DNA of 64,000 bases from Myxococcales bacterium. GTDB lineage: Bacteria > Myxococcota_A > Polyangia > Haliangiales > Haliangiaceae. Below, in pieces: positions 16,337 to 24,619 of this stretch (within the stretch, counting starts at the first letter, position 1; every line of letters starts with the position of its first letter). The position numbers and the translations under genes are program-made. A model generated the notes under the pieces. It was not told the DNA's origin, did no database searches, and was given only the letters and a program-made list of their open reading frames with translations. The stretch lies in NCBI GenBank assembly GCA_016794525.1, contig JAEUJY010000113.1:1-64000 (forward strand), given 5' to 3'.

Positions 16337-16408
<72 letters not shown>

Positions 16409-16480
16409 CGACGATTCGCGTGTGGTGAGGGCCGGTGCGCGAAAACTTGACAACGCGCTGGTCGAGGAGAGGCTTGGAGC

Positions 16481-16789
16481 ATGGCAACGAACCAGGCAGC
16501 AGCGCCCGCTGAGCGCCGCCTTACATGGGATGCGATCCGTGCGTCGTATCCGGATCGCTGGGTCGCGCTTGCCGACGTCGAGTGGGTTGACGAGGACGGC
16601 TTCGAGTTCTCGCAAGCCGAGGTGGTCGCGACGTTTCCCGACCGCAAGGCAGCGTCGCCCACGATGAAGGAGCTGGTCGCGACGGGCCGTGAGGTCGCTT
16701 GCCTCTGGACCGGCGAACGACTGCTGCCCAAGGGCGGCTCGGCGCCCCCGTGGCGCCTGCGCCTACCGGCGCCAGCGCGTAGGCACTAG
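16481..16789 (+). CDS. Small conserved-type protein, unknown function
   Basis: A 102-residue protein beginning MATNQAAAPAERRLTWDAI, with GGAG about 9 bases upstream. It has a compact core, RASYPDRWVALADVEW and DGFEFSQAEVVATFPDRK, of the kind seen in small proteins where a strand pair is followed by an acidic helix. The tail is basic (PPWRLRLPAPARRH). It carries no signal peptide or membrane segment. Its stop overlaps the end of the convergent GIY-YIG-like gene by four bases. Function unknown. Confidence 0.65.
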   Translation: MATNQAAAPAERRLTWDAIRASYPDRWVALADVEWVDEDGFEFSQAEVVATFPDRKAASPTMKELVATGREVACLWTGERLLPKGGSAPPWRLRLPAPARRH

Positions 16790-17397
16790 CCACGCGCGCG
16801 CACCGCATCGGCGGCCATGACCTGGCGAGCCCTGCGGACCTCGGCGATCCACGGCGAACCCGCGTTGCCCTGGATGTTCAGCGGGGGGACCCATTTCTTG
16901 ATCACCCCCCACTCGATCACCGCGAGGTCCGCGCAGCGTGCGGGCTTCTCCCAGACCGCCAGCGTTAGGCGGTCGAGCATCCACGACGTGAGCTCCGCGT
17001 CAGCGTCGGTGTCGAGCGCGAAGTGCGACGGCTTGTCGGCCGTCGTCAACCCGCCGCGAGGTATCGCTCGGAGGGAGAGCTCGTCGCGGAGCAGCGCCGC
17101 GAAGGTTCGCCGAACCGTCGATTGGCCGGTGCGGCCATTGTGGAAGTGCGTGTTGAGGTCTCGGCTCGCCAGGCTCCGCTCCGCCTTGCCGACGTAGAGC
17201 GGTCGGTCATCTGGGGGAACTCCGAGTCCCAACAGCCGCCAGGTCTCGAGGGAGCCGAACACCGCGTAGAGCCCGGGGGCGCTTGGGACGCGCCCTTGGG
17301 CCTCGACAAGGCGGTACCGGTGCGTTCCAAGCGCAACGCAGGCGGCGCCGACAAGATCAAGGTCCATGTGCCCCAGGGCTCGCTTCATCGACGGCAT
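16786..17397 (-). CDS. GIY-YIG-fold nuclease-like protein
   Basis: A 203-residue protein with a GIY-YIG-type domain at about residues 40-150: GLY at 42-44, LYVGKAERSLASRD at 67-80 with the usual arginine (Arg79), and a histidine (His84) on the following helix. GIY-YIG domains cut DNA in repair enzymes, homing endonucleases and some restriction enzymes. The C-terminal part (VIEWGVIKKWVPPLNIQGN) is outside the domain and is not recognised. It lies in the island, convergent with the gene at 16481. A restriction or repair role is possible but unproven. Confidence 0.7.
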   Translation of the reverse strand: MPSMKRALGHMDLDLVGAACVALGTHRYRLVEAQGRVPSAPGLYAVFGSLETWRLLGLGVPPDDRPLYVGKAERSLASRDLNTHFHNGRTGQSTVRRTFAALLRDELSLRAIPRGGLTTADKPSHFALDTDADAELTSWMLDRLTLAVWEKPARCADLAVIEWGVIKKWVPPLNIQGNAGSPWIAEVRRARQVMAADAVRARG

Positions 17398-17414
17398 CCG
17401 TGTTCACGATCTCC

Positions 17415-17783
17415 TCAGCTCGAGGCAGCGCCGAAGAGGATCGCCCCGACCGCGATCAACCCCAGCGGCGTCTCGAACGCGGCGTGCGCCATCGCGTTGC
17501 CGAGCCCCTGGTCGGGGTCCCAGCGGTCGCGGTGGATGCGCAAGCGCACCTTTCCGCCCGCCGCGCCGAAGCACTGCGCGTGAACGCGGCTGCCGTCGGC
17601 AATGGAGAGCGTATAGTCGGACGCCTGCCCGACCGGCCATCCGGTGTTGGCTCGGAAGAACGGGTCGTTCTCGGGGTGGTAGGTCTCGGGCACGAGCAGG
17701 TCGATCTTCTTGCCGGCGACGAGCTCAGCCCAACGGTGACGAACGAGATGGGTCCACAGCATGGGCAGCGCAATGAGCAGCAA
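17415..17783 (-). CDS. Small probable membrane protein downstream of the sigma-54 activator
   Basis: About 122 residues with a hydrophobic start (LLLIALPMLWTHLV), a polar middle containing DLLVPETYHPENDPFF and DYTLSIADGSRVHAQCF, and a C-terminal hydrophobic segment [18 protein letters not shown]. The start is uncertain: TTG at 17783 or the ATG at 17762. The frame stays open upstream into the end of the sigma-54 activator gene, one frame apart, so the two may be translationally coupled. I do not recognise the family. Its position makes it a possible third member of the island system. Confidence 0.5.
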   Translation of the reverse strand: MLLIALPMLWTHLVRHRWAELVAGKKIDLLVPETYHPENDPFFRANTGWPVGQASDYTLSIADGSRVHAQCFGAAGGKVRLRIHRDRWDPDQGLGNAMAHAAFETPLGLIAVGAILFGAASS

Positions 17784-17854
17784 GCGGGCCAGGTCGTTGA
17801 ACGCGTCCTTCCAATGGGTTGGAGCCTCTCGCTGGCCCGCGCTGGCCCGCTTGA

Positions 17855-19840
17855 TTAGCGTCTGGATCCGGTTGATTTCGATCGCCGCGGGCGCCCCGAG
17901 CCGGGGCGAGGACCTCCGCGAGAAAAATGAACCCCGAGCTTCGAGGCGGCTTCTCTCACGGCGCGCTCTCCCACACCGAACGCGCCGCCCATGGCCACGG
18001 CAGTCGGATGGAGTCGTTGATAGCGTGCAAAGAGTTCCGGGTTGGCGCGGACCTGCTCCCAGCGGTGCGTCGCGGATTCGCGCGGTGCCTTCGTCCGACC
18101 TCCTGGTGGCGCATTCCGAGGAGGCGAGTGATCCGGCTCGTTCAGCGAAGCCTCCTTCGTCTTGTGGACGATGAGCGCAACGATCGCTTCCAATGCCCCC
18201 TGCGCACCTGGGGAGAGACTGTCAACCCAAGCAAGGAGCTGCGCCGTCTTCGACGCCAGGTCGTTCTCGTGAAGGGCGGCGTCGCCCATCAGCCCGAGGA
18301 GTCGCTGGACCCAAGGCGGCAGGTTGTCTTCTGGTGGCGGGCGGGCAACGACATCCAGCCTTGCGACAGGGACGCCGTCTACCTGCGACAGGAGTTGCTC
18401 GAGCTCTGCTGCCAGTGTTCGAATGATCTGGTCGTGGCGGTAGACGGCGGAAGCATGCGCATCGAGGGCGACGCGATCACCTGCGATCGCGGTGAAGAGC
18501 GGGGAGCCAACCAGTTGCTCCATCAACTTCGCTGTCATGCTCCCCGGGATCGCACCGATACGAAGCGTGGCCGCAAAAACTGATACCAGCTCCGAGCGCA
18601 GCTTCGGAGCGGTCGTGCCGTACCTGGTGACCGTGTCGTGGTACAGGTCGACGATCTGGCCGGCCATCTTGCGCGTGTTGAGATACCCTGCCCGTATCGG
18701 CCCCGGGAGATCACCAAGGTCAACGCGGAGGATGTCGCGCGGGAACGGTTGGCCGAGTACCAGCGCTCGCGCGAGTTGGTCGACCTCCCGGAGATTGGCC
18801 GGCCATTGGTAGCCCTCTAGCGCCGCCCGAGCTGCGCGCGTCCACTCGACTATGATGCTGCGGCGTGCGTGCTTCGCGATGCATCGCTCGATGACCGGAA
18901 AGAGATCGCCGGCCCGTGCCGCAAGCGGAGGAAGGACGATCACATCACCTCGTAGCCGGAAGTAGAGATCCTCGCGAAAATCGCCCTTGGCGACGAGGAC
19001 CTCGAGGTTCCTGTGGGTAGCCGCGATCACCCATGGACCAACGGTCACCGGGCTGTCCGCGCCAATCGGGCGCACCTCGCCGTTGTTCAAGAACCGCAGG
19101 AGCCTTACCTGGACTTCTGCCGGCGTATCGCCGATCTCGTCGAGGAACACCGTGCCGTTGGCGTGCTTGACGATGACGCCCTGCCTGTCGCTCACAGCAC
19201 CCGTGAACGAGTTCTTCTTGTGGCCGAACAGTTCGGACTCGATCAGATGGCTCGGAAGGCCGCCGCAGTTGAGTGGACCGAATCCACTTGCTCCTTCGGT
19301 TCGCCCGCGCTGACTAATCGCGTGCAGCGCTGCGGCGAGTACCTCCTTGCCAGCACCGCTCGGGCCGTAGATAAGCAGCGGGAGAGGAAGCTCGGCTGCC
19401 TGGTGGCGGTGATGTCCGATCGCGAGTGCCATGTCCGCACCCTTCGCCAGCGAGAGCAGTGTCGCGGCGTCGTGGGTGAATACGCGGTCGAACTCGCGGT
19501 ACTCGCGTACTCGGCGCTCGAGCCAATCACGAAGCCTGGCGGCATCCGGGATCACGACGTATGACGCCATGCCCGTCCTCGGCGTCGCCCTCTGTTCCGC
19601 CCACGTCTCGATTCTGCCTAGCGCGTCGAGTGCGGCGATCTCCCTCAATAGACGGGACAGGTCCTGTGGCGGATCGTTCTCATCGTCCAGGTCATAGAGG
19701 ATGGTCAATAGCGGCCAGACGTCCTTCCAGCGTTCGGTCGCCACCGCGCGGCGAAACGCCGCGCGAAGATAATGGGACGCCTCACTCAGCGCCGGATGAG
19801 GGAACCAGATTCGCGGCTTCACCTCGCCTTGATCGCACAC
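17855..19840 (-). CDS. Sigma-54-dependent activator, atypical
   Basis: An AAA+ enhancer-binding protein of 661 residues. The AAA+ core (about 135-370) has Walker A GPSGAGKE (159-166), Walker B VFLDEIGD (Asp234-Glu235), FREDLYFRL with the arginine finger region (288-296), and WPANLREVDQLA. The sigma-54 contact loop reads NSFTGA (210-215) instead of GAFTGA; the key Phe and Thr are kept. Residues 1-130 are helical with no receiver, GAF or PAS signature. The C-terminal ~290 residues lack a Fis-type helix-turn-helix but end with a possible HTH (AVAMGGAFGVGERAVREAAS) and an Arg/Pro/Gly-rich tail. The start is GTG 19840; GTG 19822 is better placed for AAGGCGAG. It is divergent from the nuclease-STAND gene. 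Confidence 0.85.
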   Translation of the reverse strand: MCDQGEVKPRIWFPHPALSEASHYLRAAFRRAVATERWKDVWPLLTILYDLDDENDPPQDLSRLLREIAALDALGRIETWAEQRATPRTGMASYVVIPDAARLRDWLERRVREYREFDRVFTHDAATLLSLAKGADMALAIGHHRHQAAELPLPLLIYGPSGAGKEVLAAALHAISQRGRTEGASGFGPLNCGGLPSHLIESELFGHKKNSFTGAVSDRQGVIVKHANGTVFLDEIGDTPAEVQVRLLRFLNNGEVRPIGADSPVTVGPWVIAATHRNLEVLVAKGDFREDLYFRLRGDVIVLPPLAARAGDLFPVIERCIAKHARRSIIVEWTRAARAALEGYQWPANLREVDQLARALVLGQPFPRDILRVDLGDLPGPIRAGYLNTRKMAGQIVDLYHDTVTRYGTTAPKLRSELVSVFAATLRIGAIPGSMTAKLMEQLVGSPLFTAIAGDRVALDAHASAVYRHDQIIRTLAAELEQLLSQVDGVPVARLDVVARPPPEDNLPPWVQRLLGLMGDAALHENDLASKTAQLLAWVDSLSPGAQGALEAIVALIVHKTKEASLNEPDHSPPRNAPPGGRTKAPRESATHRWEQVRANPELFARYQRLHPTAVAMGGAFGVGERAVREAASKLGVHFSRGGPRPGSGRPRRSKSTGSRR

Positions 19841-20015
19841 GGGTACGACGAAGCTGCGCGGCTCGTCGGAAGAAGTGATCCCGGGATCTCCGGGATCGCA
19901 TCCAGGAAACCAGTCCCCTTGCCGGCTAGGTCGCGACGACTTACTGATGCGAGGGTTACGCGCGGCGCCCCCACATCGAAGGCGTCAACAAGATGACCTA
20001 TGGCGGACAAGCATC

Positions 20016-23000
20016 ATGGATTTTGATTGGAACAAGATCGGTAGCGGCCCCAAATTCAACGCCCTCGTGAGCGCACTGCTCCGCCAAGACGATCACAAGG
20101 CTCGCATCTTCAACCGGGAGGGCAAGGACGGCGCGATCGACGCCCTCTCTGGCGATGGAAAGACCGTCTTTCAATCGAAGTATCACCACGGCGGCTCCTC
20201 CTCCTTGGCCTTCGCCGACGCCAAGAAGGAGCTCGCCAAGATCGAGAAGCACCGGACCGCGGGCGACAAGTGGTACGCGACCTGGCATCCGGTCGAGCAC
20301 TGGTGCCTCGTTACCAACGTCCCGTTCGGGACGCAGGACGAGCAACGGTGGAAGGACGAGGTGGAGCCCGAGTTCGCGAAGCTGGGCCTCACAGCCGCCT
20401 ACAAGACGTCAGCGGACCTCCAGCTTCGCCTCATCCGGCACCGCGACATCGCGGACGCGTTCTTCGGCGATCGCCCCCGCCTGTTCGTCTCCCTTGCCGA
20501 ACACCGGGAGGCTCTCATCCGCCGCGAGGTGCTCGAGCGCTCCTACGACATCCCGCTCGAAGGTCGCGAGGCCGAGATGGCGACGGTCCGCGACTTCGTC
20601 CAGAACTCGGCGCACCATGTTCTCCTTGTCGAGGGCGAAGGCGGCGTCGGGAAGACGCGGCTCCAGTACGAAGCGGCGGCTGCGCTCGCCGACGAAGGCA
20701 TCGTCGAGACCGTCTATTGCGGGACGGCGCACCTAGCCGCGAGCCCGAGCTGGTACCTGGGCATCGTCCCCGAGTCGACCGCGCTCGTGCTGATCGATGA
20801 TCCCACCGACGCCGAGTTCATCAAGCGTTTCGTCGGAGAGTTCGGCGATCGGACGAGGCACTGGAAGGCGATCATCACGGTGCGGTCGCAGCGAGACCCG
20901 GTCATCGCGCCTCTCAAGGACCCGCGCGACCGGCTGCTCGCTCCTACGCTCGTCCTCACGCCGCTGCCCGAAGCGCCCGCCGTCCGGTTGGCCTCCGAGC
21001 TGCTTCGCCCACTTGCCATCGCCGATGACCAGCGCGCGCGGGCCGAGCGGTGGCTGGCGACTGTCTGCGGGCGCTTCCCGATCTGGATGACCGTTGCGGC
21101 CAAGCTCCTCGAGTCGCGCGACGACCTGCGCGAGCTTCCAGCCGACGGCTTCAAGATTGCCAAGGAGTACGTGGCCGAGATCGTGCACCACACCCCACCC
21201 GAGATCGCCACGCCGGTGCAGGCACTCGAGGCGCTCCGTTGGATCGCCCTCGTGCAACCGCTCAACCGCCTCTCGGACGACGCCCTCGAGCGCTTCGCCT
21301 CGGCCGCCGGGCTGTCGTCGGCCGCTCAAGCCGTTGCCATCATTGACGACTTCGCCCGGCGGCGGGCCGTCACGCTCTTCGGCGTCAACAAGCGCATGGT
21401 CGAGGTCCGGCCCGACGTCCTCCGCGACCACCTCCTGATCGAATGGCTGACGGCCGATGACGCCGGCGGCGGCCGCCGGCCGTCTCCGGCGGCCCGCACC
21501 GTCGCCGACCAACTCGCCGCCGACGCACTCGAGGGGCGGCCGAACCCGTTCATGCAGCAAGTTGTGAGCTCGCTCGCACGACTCGAGTTCACCATCGAGC
21601 CGCCGCCGCCGTTCCTCGACCCTCTGGCGAACGCTGCCGTCGCGCTCGCCGAGCGGGCCTCCGACACGCTTGCGCAGCAGCAGGCCCTTGAACTCGCCAG
21701 CGCGATCGCGCTCTTCCGGCCAGCTGGATTCGCGCGCGTGTCGACGGTTCTTCGCACGCGCGACGTCCCCGTCGGTTCTTTCCGAACCGTACTGGGCGAG
21801 CACGGCGTGCCCCGTGCTCGCGTGCTCGGCGCCGTGCCCTGGGAGCTGTTCCGCGCCGCCCGAGGAGCCATGAGCGGGTCGGAGCGCGTCGCGATCCTCC
21901 GGGAACTCATCGAGTTGGTCGACATCGAGGCCGCGGCTCCGGCCCGCCGCGCGAACGATGGGAAGAGCGCCTCGGAGCTCCTGCAGCGTGTCCTTCACGA
22001 GCGGCACTCTTACCGGTCCAGCTTCCACAAGGAAGCGGCCGCCCTCGCGAGCGACGTCCTGAACCGCGTCGCCGCCGGTGAGCCGCCTCGCGAGAGCGCG
22101 AAGGTCCTCGTGGGCGCGCTCATCGCGCTTGAGCGGCACGATGGCTACACGTCGCCTGACGACCCGAATGCGTTCACGTTCGAGAGCTTCACGATCTCGC
22201 CCGACGCCGGTCTCGGGAAGATCGCCGCCTCGATCCGTGAGCGGCTCTGGGCGATCGCCTCGAAGGTAGGTCCGTTCACGCCGGCGAAGCGCTTCGCCTG
22301 GCCGCTCCTCGATGCGATGCACGGCGGGCTCAACCGTTCAGGCAACATCGCCGGCTGGCGCCGCCTGCTCCTCGACGACCTCGCGCGCTGCCTGGCGCTC
22401 GCAACAGATGCCGCCACGCAGCTCGAGGACCTCCAGGCGGCGAGGGCACTCTGGGACTGGCACGTGGCCTTCGGCGACGACGACTCGGAGGGGCGGCGGC
22501 TCGCGACGAACTGCGAAGCCGCCTACCTCAAGCACCCCGTTGTCGCACGCTACGCCGCGGTCTTCGCCAGCGACCGCATCGAATCCGACCGCGTCCTGCA
22601 GGAGGCGGCAGAGGCGTGGCCGGCGACGGCGACGGCCCAGGAGTTGGAGGAGTACGTCGAGGGAGCCCTCCTCTACGCACGCACCCACGCGGAGCGCTGG
22701 ACCGAGAACCGAGTGATCTCCTTCGTCTCCTACCTCGGCGAACGCCACGGCGCCGATTCAGGCGTAAGGGACTTCGTCGCCGCTCATCTCGCGAGGGGCG
22801 TGACGAGTCCGCTCTTCCAGGTCGCGCTCCGCCTCGCGAACGCCGCGCTCTGGACCGTGCGTCAGCGCGGCGACGATGCCTCCGTGCGCGCCTCCCTGGA
22901 CTGGCTCGACGCCGCGGTCCGAGACGACGAGGCGCGGCTACGACTGCTCGAATCGCTCTACCCGGGCGCAGGAAAGCTGGTTGCGCGCGTGTGGTCGGAC

Positions 23001-24011
23001 GCCGACCGGGCCTTCATGGACCGGCACTGGACGTTGATCGAGCGGCTGTCCGTTCAAAGCCGCTTCTTCGTCATGGGCCGCCGGCTCCAGACGGACCCGT
23101 CGATGATGGCGCGCATCACGGACGCGGTCGCGCCCCTCGACGCCGCCGCGCGGTCGGAGGCCGTCGTCGCGCTCTGGAGCGGCTACGACGACCTTCTCCC
23201 GTACCCGTTCAAGGCGGAAGACATCTCCATGCCCGTCGTCGACTTCCTGCTCGATTTCCTAGTGATGGAACCGGACCTGAGTGCGTCGCACGGCCACGCC
23301 TCGTGGGAGATCGAACAGATCCTCAAGGCCGTTCCCCGCAAGCCGGCTTCCTGGCTCGCGGAGGTCATCCGCCGCCGCGTCGAGGTGTTCGGGCCGCACA
23401 ACAAGCAGGTCGCGGCCGACAAGTTCGGCGAGTACACCTTCATCCTGCCCAGCGACGATGCGCTCATCTGGCGTGTCGTCGAGCGGCTTCCCGACGAGGA
23501 GCCGACGGCTGAGGCCGTCGCGGCGATCGCTCGCCTCTTCGAGATCGCCACAACGGACACCACCGTCGACTACTACCTTGGGCAGACGCTTGCGAAGCTC
23601 GACCCGCATGGACGAGTCGGCCCCCAGGTGGTCGCGCGCCGGCTCGCCGACGTCCTCGACGTGCCCGACGTCGACGCGATCTGTACGTGGGCCCGGTTGG
23701 CGGGCTGGTACCCGATCGGTTCGTGGCCGTGGCGCGTCATCGCGAGCGCCGCGTGCGCGCGCGTCTTCACCGACGCGACCGACGACGAACGGTACACTGT
23801 GTTCTCGGCCTTGCACTCGCATCGAATCCAGAGCTGGTCGGGAAGGCCCGGCGAGCTCCATCCGAGATTCCAGTCGGCCGTCGACGATGCGAAGAGATCG
23901 CTCGACGCTGAAACGGATCCGTTCCTCCGGCCCTACTGGGAATGGGCGGTGAAGGTCGCGGAGCACCACCGCGAGCGCGAGAAGGGGAAGCTCGAGGAAC
24001 GCGAGCTGTGA
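20016..24011 (+). CDS. Mrr-like nuclease / STAND NTPase, Avs-like candidate defence protein
   Basis: A 1331-residue protein. Residues 1-150 look like an Mrr-type PD-(D/E)xK nuclease: GKDGAIDALSGDGKTVFQSK has Asp42, Gln53 and Lys55 in the expected order. An NTPase core follows, with Walker A GEGGVGKT (207-214), Walker B LVLIDDP (Asp261-Asp262), and a TVRSQRD sensor-like motif. The remaining ~900 residues are mostly helical with repeat-like spacing, as in the sensor halves of STAND proteins. Nuclease-STAND-repeat is the layout of antiviral Avs proteins, which detect phage proteins and then degrade DNA. ATG 20016 (MDFDWNKIG) starts the conserved part. The sigma-54 activator is divergent, 175 bases away. 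Confidence 0.8.
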   Translation: MDFDWNKIGSGPKFNALVSALLRQDDHKARIFNREGKDGAIDALSGDGKTVFQSKYHHGGSSSLAFADAKKELAKIEKHRTAGDKWYATWHPVEHWCLVTNVPFGTQDEQRWKDEVEPEFAKLGLTAAYKTSADLQLRLIRHRDIADAFFGDRPRLFVSLAEHREALIRREVLERSYDIPLEGREAEMATVRDFVQNSAHHVLLVEGEGGVGKTRLQYEAAAALADEGIVETVYCGTAHLAASPSWYLGIVPESTALVLIDDPTDAEFIKRFVGEFGDRTRHWKAIITVRSQRDPVIAPLKDPRDRLLAPTLVLTPLPEAPAVRLASELLRPLAIADDQRARAERWLATVCGRFPIWMTVAAKLLESRDDLRELPADGFKIAKEYVAEIVHHTPPEIATPVQALEALRWIALVQPLNRLSDDALERFASAAGLSSAAQAVAIIDDFARRRAVTLFGVNKRMVEVRPDVLRDHLLIEWLTADDAGGGRRPSPAARTVADQLAADALEGRPNPFMQQVVSSLARLEFTIEPPPPFLDPLANAAVALAERASDTLAQQQALELASAIALFRPAGFARVSTVLRTRDVPVGSFRTVLGEHGVPRARVLGAVPWELFRAARGAMSGSERVAILRELIELVDIEAAAPARRANDGKSASELLQRVLHERHSYRSSFHKEAAALASDVLNRVAAGEPPRESAKVLVGALIALERHDGYTSPDDPNAFTFESFTISPDAGLGKIAASIRERLWAIASKVGPFTPAKRFAWPLLDAMHGGLNRSGNIAGWRRLLLDDLARCLALATDAATQLEDLQAARALWDWHVAFGDDDSEGRRLATNCEAAYLKHPVVARYAAVFASDRIESDRVLQEAAEAWPATATAQELEEYVEGALLYARTHAERWTENRVISFVSYLGERHGADSGVRDFVAAHLARGVTSPLFQVALRLANAALWTVRQRGDDASVRASLDWLDAAVRDDEARLRLLESLYPGAGKLVARVWSDADRAFMDRHWTLIERLSVQSRFFVMGRRLQTDPSMMARITDAVAPLDAAARSEAVVALWSGYDDLLPYPFKAEDISMPVVDFLLDFLVMEPDLSASHGHASWEIEQILKAVPRKPASWLAEVIRRRVEVFGPHNKQVAADKFGEYTFILPSDDALIWRVVERLPDEEPTAEAVAAIARLFEIATTDTTVDYYLGQTLAKLDPHGRVGPQVVARRLADVLDVPDVDAICTWARLAGWYPIGSWPWRVIASAACARVFTDATDDERYTVFSALHSHRIQSWSGRPGELHPRFQSAVDDAKRSLDAETDPFLRPYWEWAVKVAEHHREREKGKLEEREL

Positions 24012-24016
24012 CGATC

Positions 24017-24042
24017 GTTGAGCGGACACCCGTTCGCTCAAC
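24017..24042 (+). terminator. Hairpin after the nuclease-STAND gene
   Basis: GTTGAGCG (24017-24024) and CGCTCAAC (24035-24042) form a perfect 8-bp stem around a 10-base loop, five bases after the stop codon. There is no T-run. It may end the transcript or mark the border of the island. Confidence 0.45.
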
Positions 24043-24160
24043 CCTGGCCAGCCCGTTCTTGGTGCTCGGGTCGGTGCTGGAGCCGTTCACACCCCAGTTC
24101 ACACCTTCACCGCGTCGGCCGGGGACGCCCTGTGACACGTGGCGACGTGTATCTCCCAGG

Positions 24161-24619
24161 AACGAGGCCGGCCTGACGAACGGCACGTTCTACACGCACT
24201 TCAAGTCGAAGGAGGCCCTGGTGCGCGAGGCGCTGCTGCGCTCACTCGACCCGCGCCACGAGGACCTCGCGCAACTGCTCCTGAACAGCGACGCCGAGGC
24301 CTTGATTCGTGCGTACCTGAGCCCGGAGCACCGCGATGATCCAGGCGCCGGATGCGTGGTCGCCGCCTTGGCCTCCGAGGTGTCCCGGCACCCGCGCGCG
24401 ACGCGACAGACCTTCTCGACGCATAGCGCGCGCACGCTCGACGCCATCGCGGCCTCGCTGCTGTCCCGCAAGGGGAAGAAGGCCAAGCGCGAGGACGCGG
24501 CCGTCTTCATGGGGCTGCTCAGCGGAACGCTGCAGATCGCTCGCGCCACGCCGGACCGGGACGAGTCCGATGCCATCCTCGAAGCTGGCATCCAAGCCGC
24601 GATCCGGATGTTGAAGTAG
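24161..24619 (+). pseudogene. TetR-family regulator missing its N-terminal half-HTH
   Basis: The sequence reads EAGLTNGTFYTHFKSKEALV, the second half of a TetR helix-turn-helix, and continues to a complete C-terminal TetR ligand domain (GCVVAALASEVSRHPRATR) ending at 24619. The first ~40 residues (helix 1 and the start of the HTH) are absent; the bases upstream do not encode them in any frame. The frame is open back to a GTG at 24008 that overlaps the STAND stop codon, so a 203-residue product could be made, but it could not form a normal DNA-binding domain. The break at about 24161 probably marks the right edge of the island. Confidence 0.75.

Follow-up and report, generated by a model that had tools for sequence, protein, structure and literature searches.

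The gene at positions 20016-24011 (+ strand) of the window, meaning the whole 64,000-nucleotide stretch of DNA analyzed here, probably encodes an Avs4-like defence protein, divergent in sequence and apparently orphaned, on a tRNA-Gly island that is small and decayed, and the sigma-54 activator, small ORF, and GIY-YIG gene that share the island are best regarded as separate cargo. The protein (1331 aa, from a full-length open frame) begins with a predicted Mrr-like PD-(D/E)xK nuclease domain (20016-20465, +; approximately residues 1-150), continues through a STAND NTPase and winged-helix-like region (20556-21500, +; approximately residues 181-495), and ends in a long, mostly helical C-terminal part (21501-24008, +) that is presumed to be a sensor on the basis of the corresponding role in Avs4.

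The NTPase region contains a Walker A motif (GEGGVGKT, residues 207-214) and a Walker B motif (VLIDDP, with IDDP at residues 260-263). The nSTAND_NTPase5 family matched all six family members that were scanned, with the window protein scoring under the curated cut-off. In a structure model of residues 1-1195 (pLDDT 82.5), this region aligns with Apaf-1 (Z 19.0) and NLRC4 (Z 18.4), so that the Walker motifs and the modeled NB-ARC/NACHT-like fold together place the protein among the STAND NTPases. The C-terminal part is mainly helical as far as the model extends, to residue 1195. At the N-terminus, the modeled order is H-E-E-H-E-H-E (H11-25, E41-44, E50-55, H62-79, E95-100, H, and E126-130), and D42, Q53, and K55 (D42 with Q53-x-K55) are kept in at least 90% of the rows in an alignment of 18 relatives. 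No Pfam nuclease family matched the STAND protein, and the PD-(D/E)xK, Mrr-like domain is predicted from its topology in this model and from its residues. Overall, the combination of nuclease, STAND P-loop, and helical C-terminus proposed in the preliminary description agrees with the nSTAND_NTPase5 matches, the model topology, the D42/Q53xK55 residues, and Foldseek. When the STAND profile was searched against PDB sequences, only short chance matches resulted, mostly to P-loop segments, and these were set aside.

Avs4 (AVAST type 4) carries an Mrr-like nuclease and senses the phage portal. Its layout, in which a nuclease domain at the N-terminus leads into a STAND NTPase and then a long helical C-terminus, is also that of the window protein, and a Foldseek search with the model of residues 1-1195 returned Avs4 as the top match (8dgf_A, E 1.1e-11; the runner-up was at 1.8e-7), the title of the 8dgf structure naming the portal. 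Full-length TM-scores of the model versus Avs4 were low (0.12-0.15), which may reflect a different placement of the domains and does not count as support. The NCBIfam Avs4 model NF041815, for which the cut-off is 1500 bits, scored the protein at an insignificant 10.9 bits (E 0.045). The layout of an Avs protein, as originally suggested, was thus recovered by fold but not by sequence, and the STAND protein is Avs4-like by layout while lying outside Avs4 by that family’s own sequence cut-off. A search for genuine Avs4 across the phylum matched nothing, but its controls were equally empty, and the result carries no weight. It is also shorter than Avs4 (1331 aa versus 1579 in the family model), and most of its relatives differ further in having a HEPN-like partner gene, which to our knowledge is not a feature of Avs4. 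No PADLOC model matched the window STAND protein; the PADLOC candidate PDC-S73 is matched weakly by 8 of the 18 family members (best 6.4e-7), but not by the window protein.

Homologues of the STAND protein were found in nine other genomes of a 379-genome phylum sample and at 14 loci of a genome collection, which overlap in part with the phylum-sample loci. They are patchily distributed among Myxococcota, Planctomycetes, Cyanobacteria, Verrucomicrobia, Kiritimatiellae, and Eisenbacteria. On plasmids, relatives are present only as fragments, in Nostoc azollae, and no relative was confirmed on viral contigs. The genes near these homologues include HsdR, HsdM, HsdS, a DUF1016 nuclease, and RhuM, which is a defence-island setting.

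In 14 genomes, the STAND gene is followed downstream by a gene of approximately 270 aa, and in nine of the ten pairs measured the STAND stop and the partner start overlap by 4 bp (ATGA). Examples of the partner are located at L044:11712-12512, L045:11996-12796, and L058:9569-10369. A fifteenth case comes from a plasmid of Nostoc azollae, in which a fragmented STAND match and the partner flank the start of the record, one on each side. The partner’s R169-N170-xxx-H174 motif (RNxxxH) is invariant across 14 sequences, a motif type that serves as a signature of HEPN RNases, and its sequence contains the RX4-6H pattern expected of HEPN proteins. The partner’s structure model is confident and all-helical (pLDDT 89.7). 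A fold comparison placed the Csm6 structure 6tug_H at Z 7.3, level with unrelated helical bundles; Foldseek returned no HEPN-fold match to the partner at E below 0.001, and none of the Pfam HEPN families matched it. The HEPN-like assignment is founded on the motif together with the all-helical model. Several of the STAND-partner pairs adjoin type I restriction genes. A published survey links HEPN RNases both to R-M systems and to STAND ATPases and lists STAND-HEPN fusions (PMC3710099); the partner resembles these RNases in its RNxxxH motif, its all-helical model, and the proximity of several copies to R-M genes, and differs in being a separate gene rather than a fusion and in being found in the relatives rather than in the window.

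The partner was detected neither at the window locus nor anywhere else in its genome by a search that was positive in four control genomes, and it is also missing beside two other homologues, L046 and L060, both of which have complete STAND frames. In a phylogenetic tree, the window copy is located on a long branch within a weakly supported group (91/91, flagged as open), together with the partner-bearing L059 and L048 and the partnerless L046. From this mixed placement, it is likely that the window copy lost its partner rather than never having had one. No description of an Mrr-STAND/HEPN pair was found in the literature searched, many subscription papers being outside its coverage. A bolder interpretation can be advanced tentatively: the pair may constitute an undescribed, two-gene defence system in which an Mrr-STAND sensor nuclease is operonic with a HEPN-like RNase, one sensor driving attack on both DNA and RNA, and the window island may be a case in which the HEPN gene was lost and the sensor came to be set beside a sigma-54 activator and GIY-YIG cargo.

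The island itself begins at a tRNA-Gly(CCC) gene (16337-16409, +), the sole tRNA, which marks its left attachment side. Within the region, G+C falls from approximately 0.74 to 0.64-0.70, and third-codon G+C is 0.73-0.89 in the region’s genes versus 0.94-0.98 in flanking genes, consistent with the tRNA side and relaxed composition noted earlier. On the minus strand, the sigma-54 activator-like AAA+ gene (17855-19840; 661 aa; Sigma54_activat, E 1.5e-48) is divergent from the STAND gene, with 175 bases between them, and it is followed on the same strand by a small hydrophobic ORF (17415-17783; 122 aa as called) and by a GIY-YIG_2 gene (16786-17397; 203 aa; PF20815, E 9.3e-14) whose product has no relative that could be found in the 379 phylum genomes or in phages. 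An ORF check reproduced the coordinates first given for the STAND gene, the activator, the 175-base gap, and the small ORF. The idea that a small membrane-type protein follows the activator survived in part: a hydrophobic ORF is present, but its single, C-terminal hydrophobic segment is marginal, and its start is uncertain because the frame is open well 5' of the called TTG. The interval as initially drawn, from 17415, begins approximately 1 kb too late, since the previously unlisted GIY-YIG gene shares the island.

The island spans approximately 16410-24165 and is missing its integrase and right attachment site; there is no integrase within it, and the tRNA 3' end was not found a second time in the window. 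These bounds follow from a sequence at 24084-24165 that is 85% identical to the right end of an element in the sister genome G086 (L092 6096-6177), where the element end is situated 36 bases before a second copy of the tRNA 3' end, and from the truncated tetR that comes next. The tetR remnant (24163-24619, +), 5'-truncated and outside the island, is matched by TetR_N from profile position 25, and its relatives are intact in G381 and G086. It joins the island’s right end, and beyond the element the sequence is not syntenic with G086. In a genome fragmented into 177 contigs, this junction on the right may have arisen in assembly. In sister genomes, the same tRNA-Gly is an integration hot spot whose cargo differs: G086 carries 2.6 kb, G390 10 kb, and G333 18 kb, in each case closed off by a further copy of the tRNA 3' end, and phage-type integrases adjoin the tRNA in G388 (L096) and G381 (L098). 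The cargoes, att-type repeats, and integrases of these sister genomes bear out the mobile-island setting that had been proposed. The content of such islands is varied. For example, one at the same tRNA-Gly encodes a Fis HTH-bearing sigma-54 activator (L093:12949-14028) next to an RHS-type protein of 2635 aa whose C-terminus is a papain-fold toxin domain (L093:4965-12872); another has paired HsdM and HsdR genes of a type I restriction system (L097:11068-16565); and in a further sister genome, an eCIS_core-domain protein of 1065 aa is encoded near this tRNA (L095:1508-4705).

The activator’s AAA+ domain is intact, its loop reading NSFTGA for GAFTGA, with FTGA kept in an alignment with FleQ, and the sequence has the Walker motifs, GAFTGA-type loop, and arginine fingers expected of a bEBP. 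No family matched its N-terminal 140 or C-terminal 297 residues; the latter gave no match to any HTH family, including the Fis type, and are without a relative in the 379 genomes of the phylum sample. Among plasmids, no full-length relative was found at a coverage of at least 80%; the plasmid matches cover the AAA+ part and adjoin polysaccharide or hydrogenase genes. The closest match in a defence database is PADLOC RtcR_PspF2 (E 1.5e-69), confined to residues 144-362 and to positions 182-400 of the 481-position profile, i.e., the AAA+ part. RtcR and RtcR_PspF2 have a CARF-AAA-HTH organization, and some of this group also adjoin R-M systems (PMC4012209), but neither a CARF domain nor a Fis-type HTH is recognized in the window activator.

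The preliminary description held that this activator was dedicated to the STAND gene, with induction through sigma-54 as a new idea. It is conceivable that the two genes form a single unit, with the activator responding to stress or infection by turning on the STAND gene from a sigma-54 promoter; their divergent arrangement 175 bases apart on the same small island, the integrity of the AAA+ domain apart from NSFTGA, and the presence of rpoN in the genome are all compatible with this scheme. An operator-like dyad, GAAGTGATCCCGG-N5-CCGGGATCGCATC (19872-19902), with 11 of 13 positions paired, is also present in the shared intergenic region; its pairing is equalled in 9 of 500 shuffles, which makes it mildly unusual, and it could be a binding site for some regulator. 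The idea has a precedent, as RtcR-like sigma-54 activators are known beside R-M systems and were proposed in 2014 to regulate restriction genes (PMC4012209). We nevertheless consider such a unit very improbable. When the homologues were examined for the association, none of 17 STAND loci had an adjacent sigma-54 activator, i.e., the link is not conserved. Just one activator, of the FHA type and 2.5 kb from the STAND gene (L043/L052), was encountered in the 289 kb of these 17 loci, a frequency close to chance, since the window’s genome alone has approximately 80. Furthermore, no -24/-12 element stood above background before the STAND gene (best score 4.1, in-house scoring), and third-codon G+C differs between the two genes (0.73 against 0.87). 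The activator could instead control its own strand, that is, the small ORF and the GIY-YIG gene, and have nothing to do with the STAND gene. The best sigma-54-like site, TGGCCCGCTTGCTGCT (17776-17791, -), has the highest score in the 64 kb (in-house scoring) and lies directly 3' of the activator gene in the right orientation, but it was picked post hoc, overlaps the open frame of the small ORF, and is matched in score in 29 of 2000 local shuffles and in 22 of 60 shuffled islands; it was rejected as a promoter for want of significance across the island, and control of this kind appears unlikely. The link between the activator and the STAND gene is probably coincidental.

With the partner missing beside the window copy, the STAND protein is either self-sufficient or an orphan remnant. 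That the entire locus is a relic in decay that no longer functions, its partner, integrase, and right attachment site gone, is a reading to which we assign a rather low probability. The missing HEPN-like partner, both at the locus and in the genome, speaks for it, as does an island that has no integrase and is joined at its right end to a truncated tetR; against it, neither the STAND nor the activator frame is shortened or interrupted by stops, the catalytic-type motifs are intact, and the partnerless homologues L046 and L060 keep complete frames. For an Avs4-like protein on a decayed island, which we favor, we infer nuclease activity and phage sensing, as well as a HEPN function in the relatives. 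The helical C-terminus would recognize a phage component, ATP-dependent STAND oligomerization would then gather the Mrr-like nuclease domains, and the gathered domains would cut DNA, thereby aborting infection. In most relatives, the HEPN-like protein would probably contribute RNase activity or control, and the activator, small ORF, and GIY-YIG gene would be separate cargo, divergently adjacent by chance.

As the activator link is not conserved, effort is better spent on the STAND-HEPN-like pair of the relatives, which is the most useful lead to emerge from this locus. These findings extend the Avs4-like layout to a multi-phylum family that is unnamed by PADLOC and NCBIfam models, and the conserved HEPN-like second gene would make of it a testable dual-effector system.
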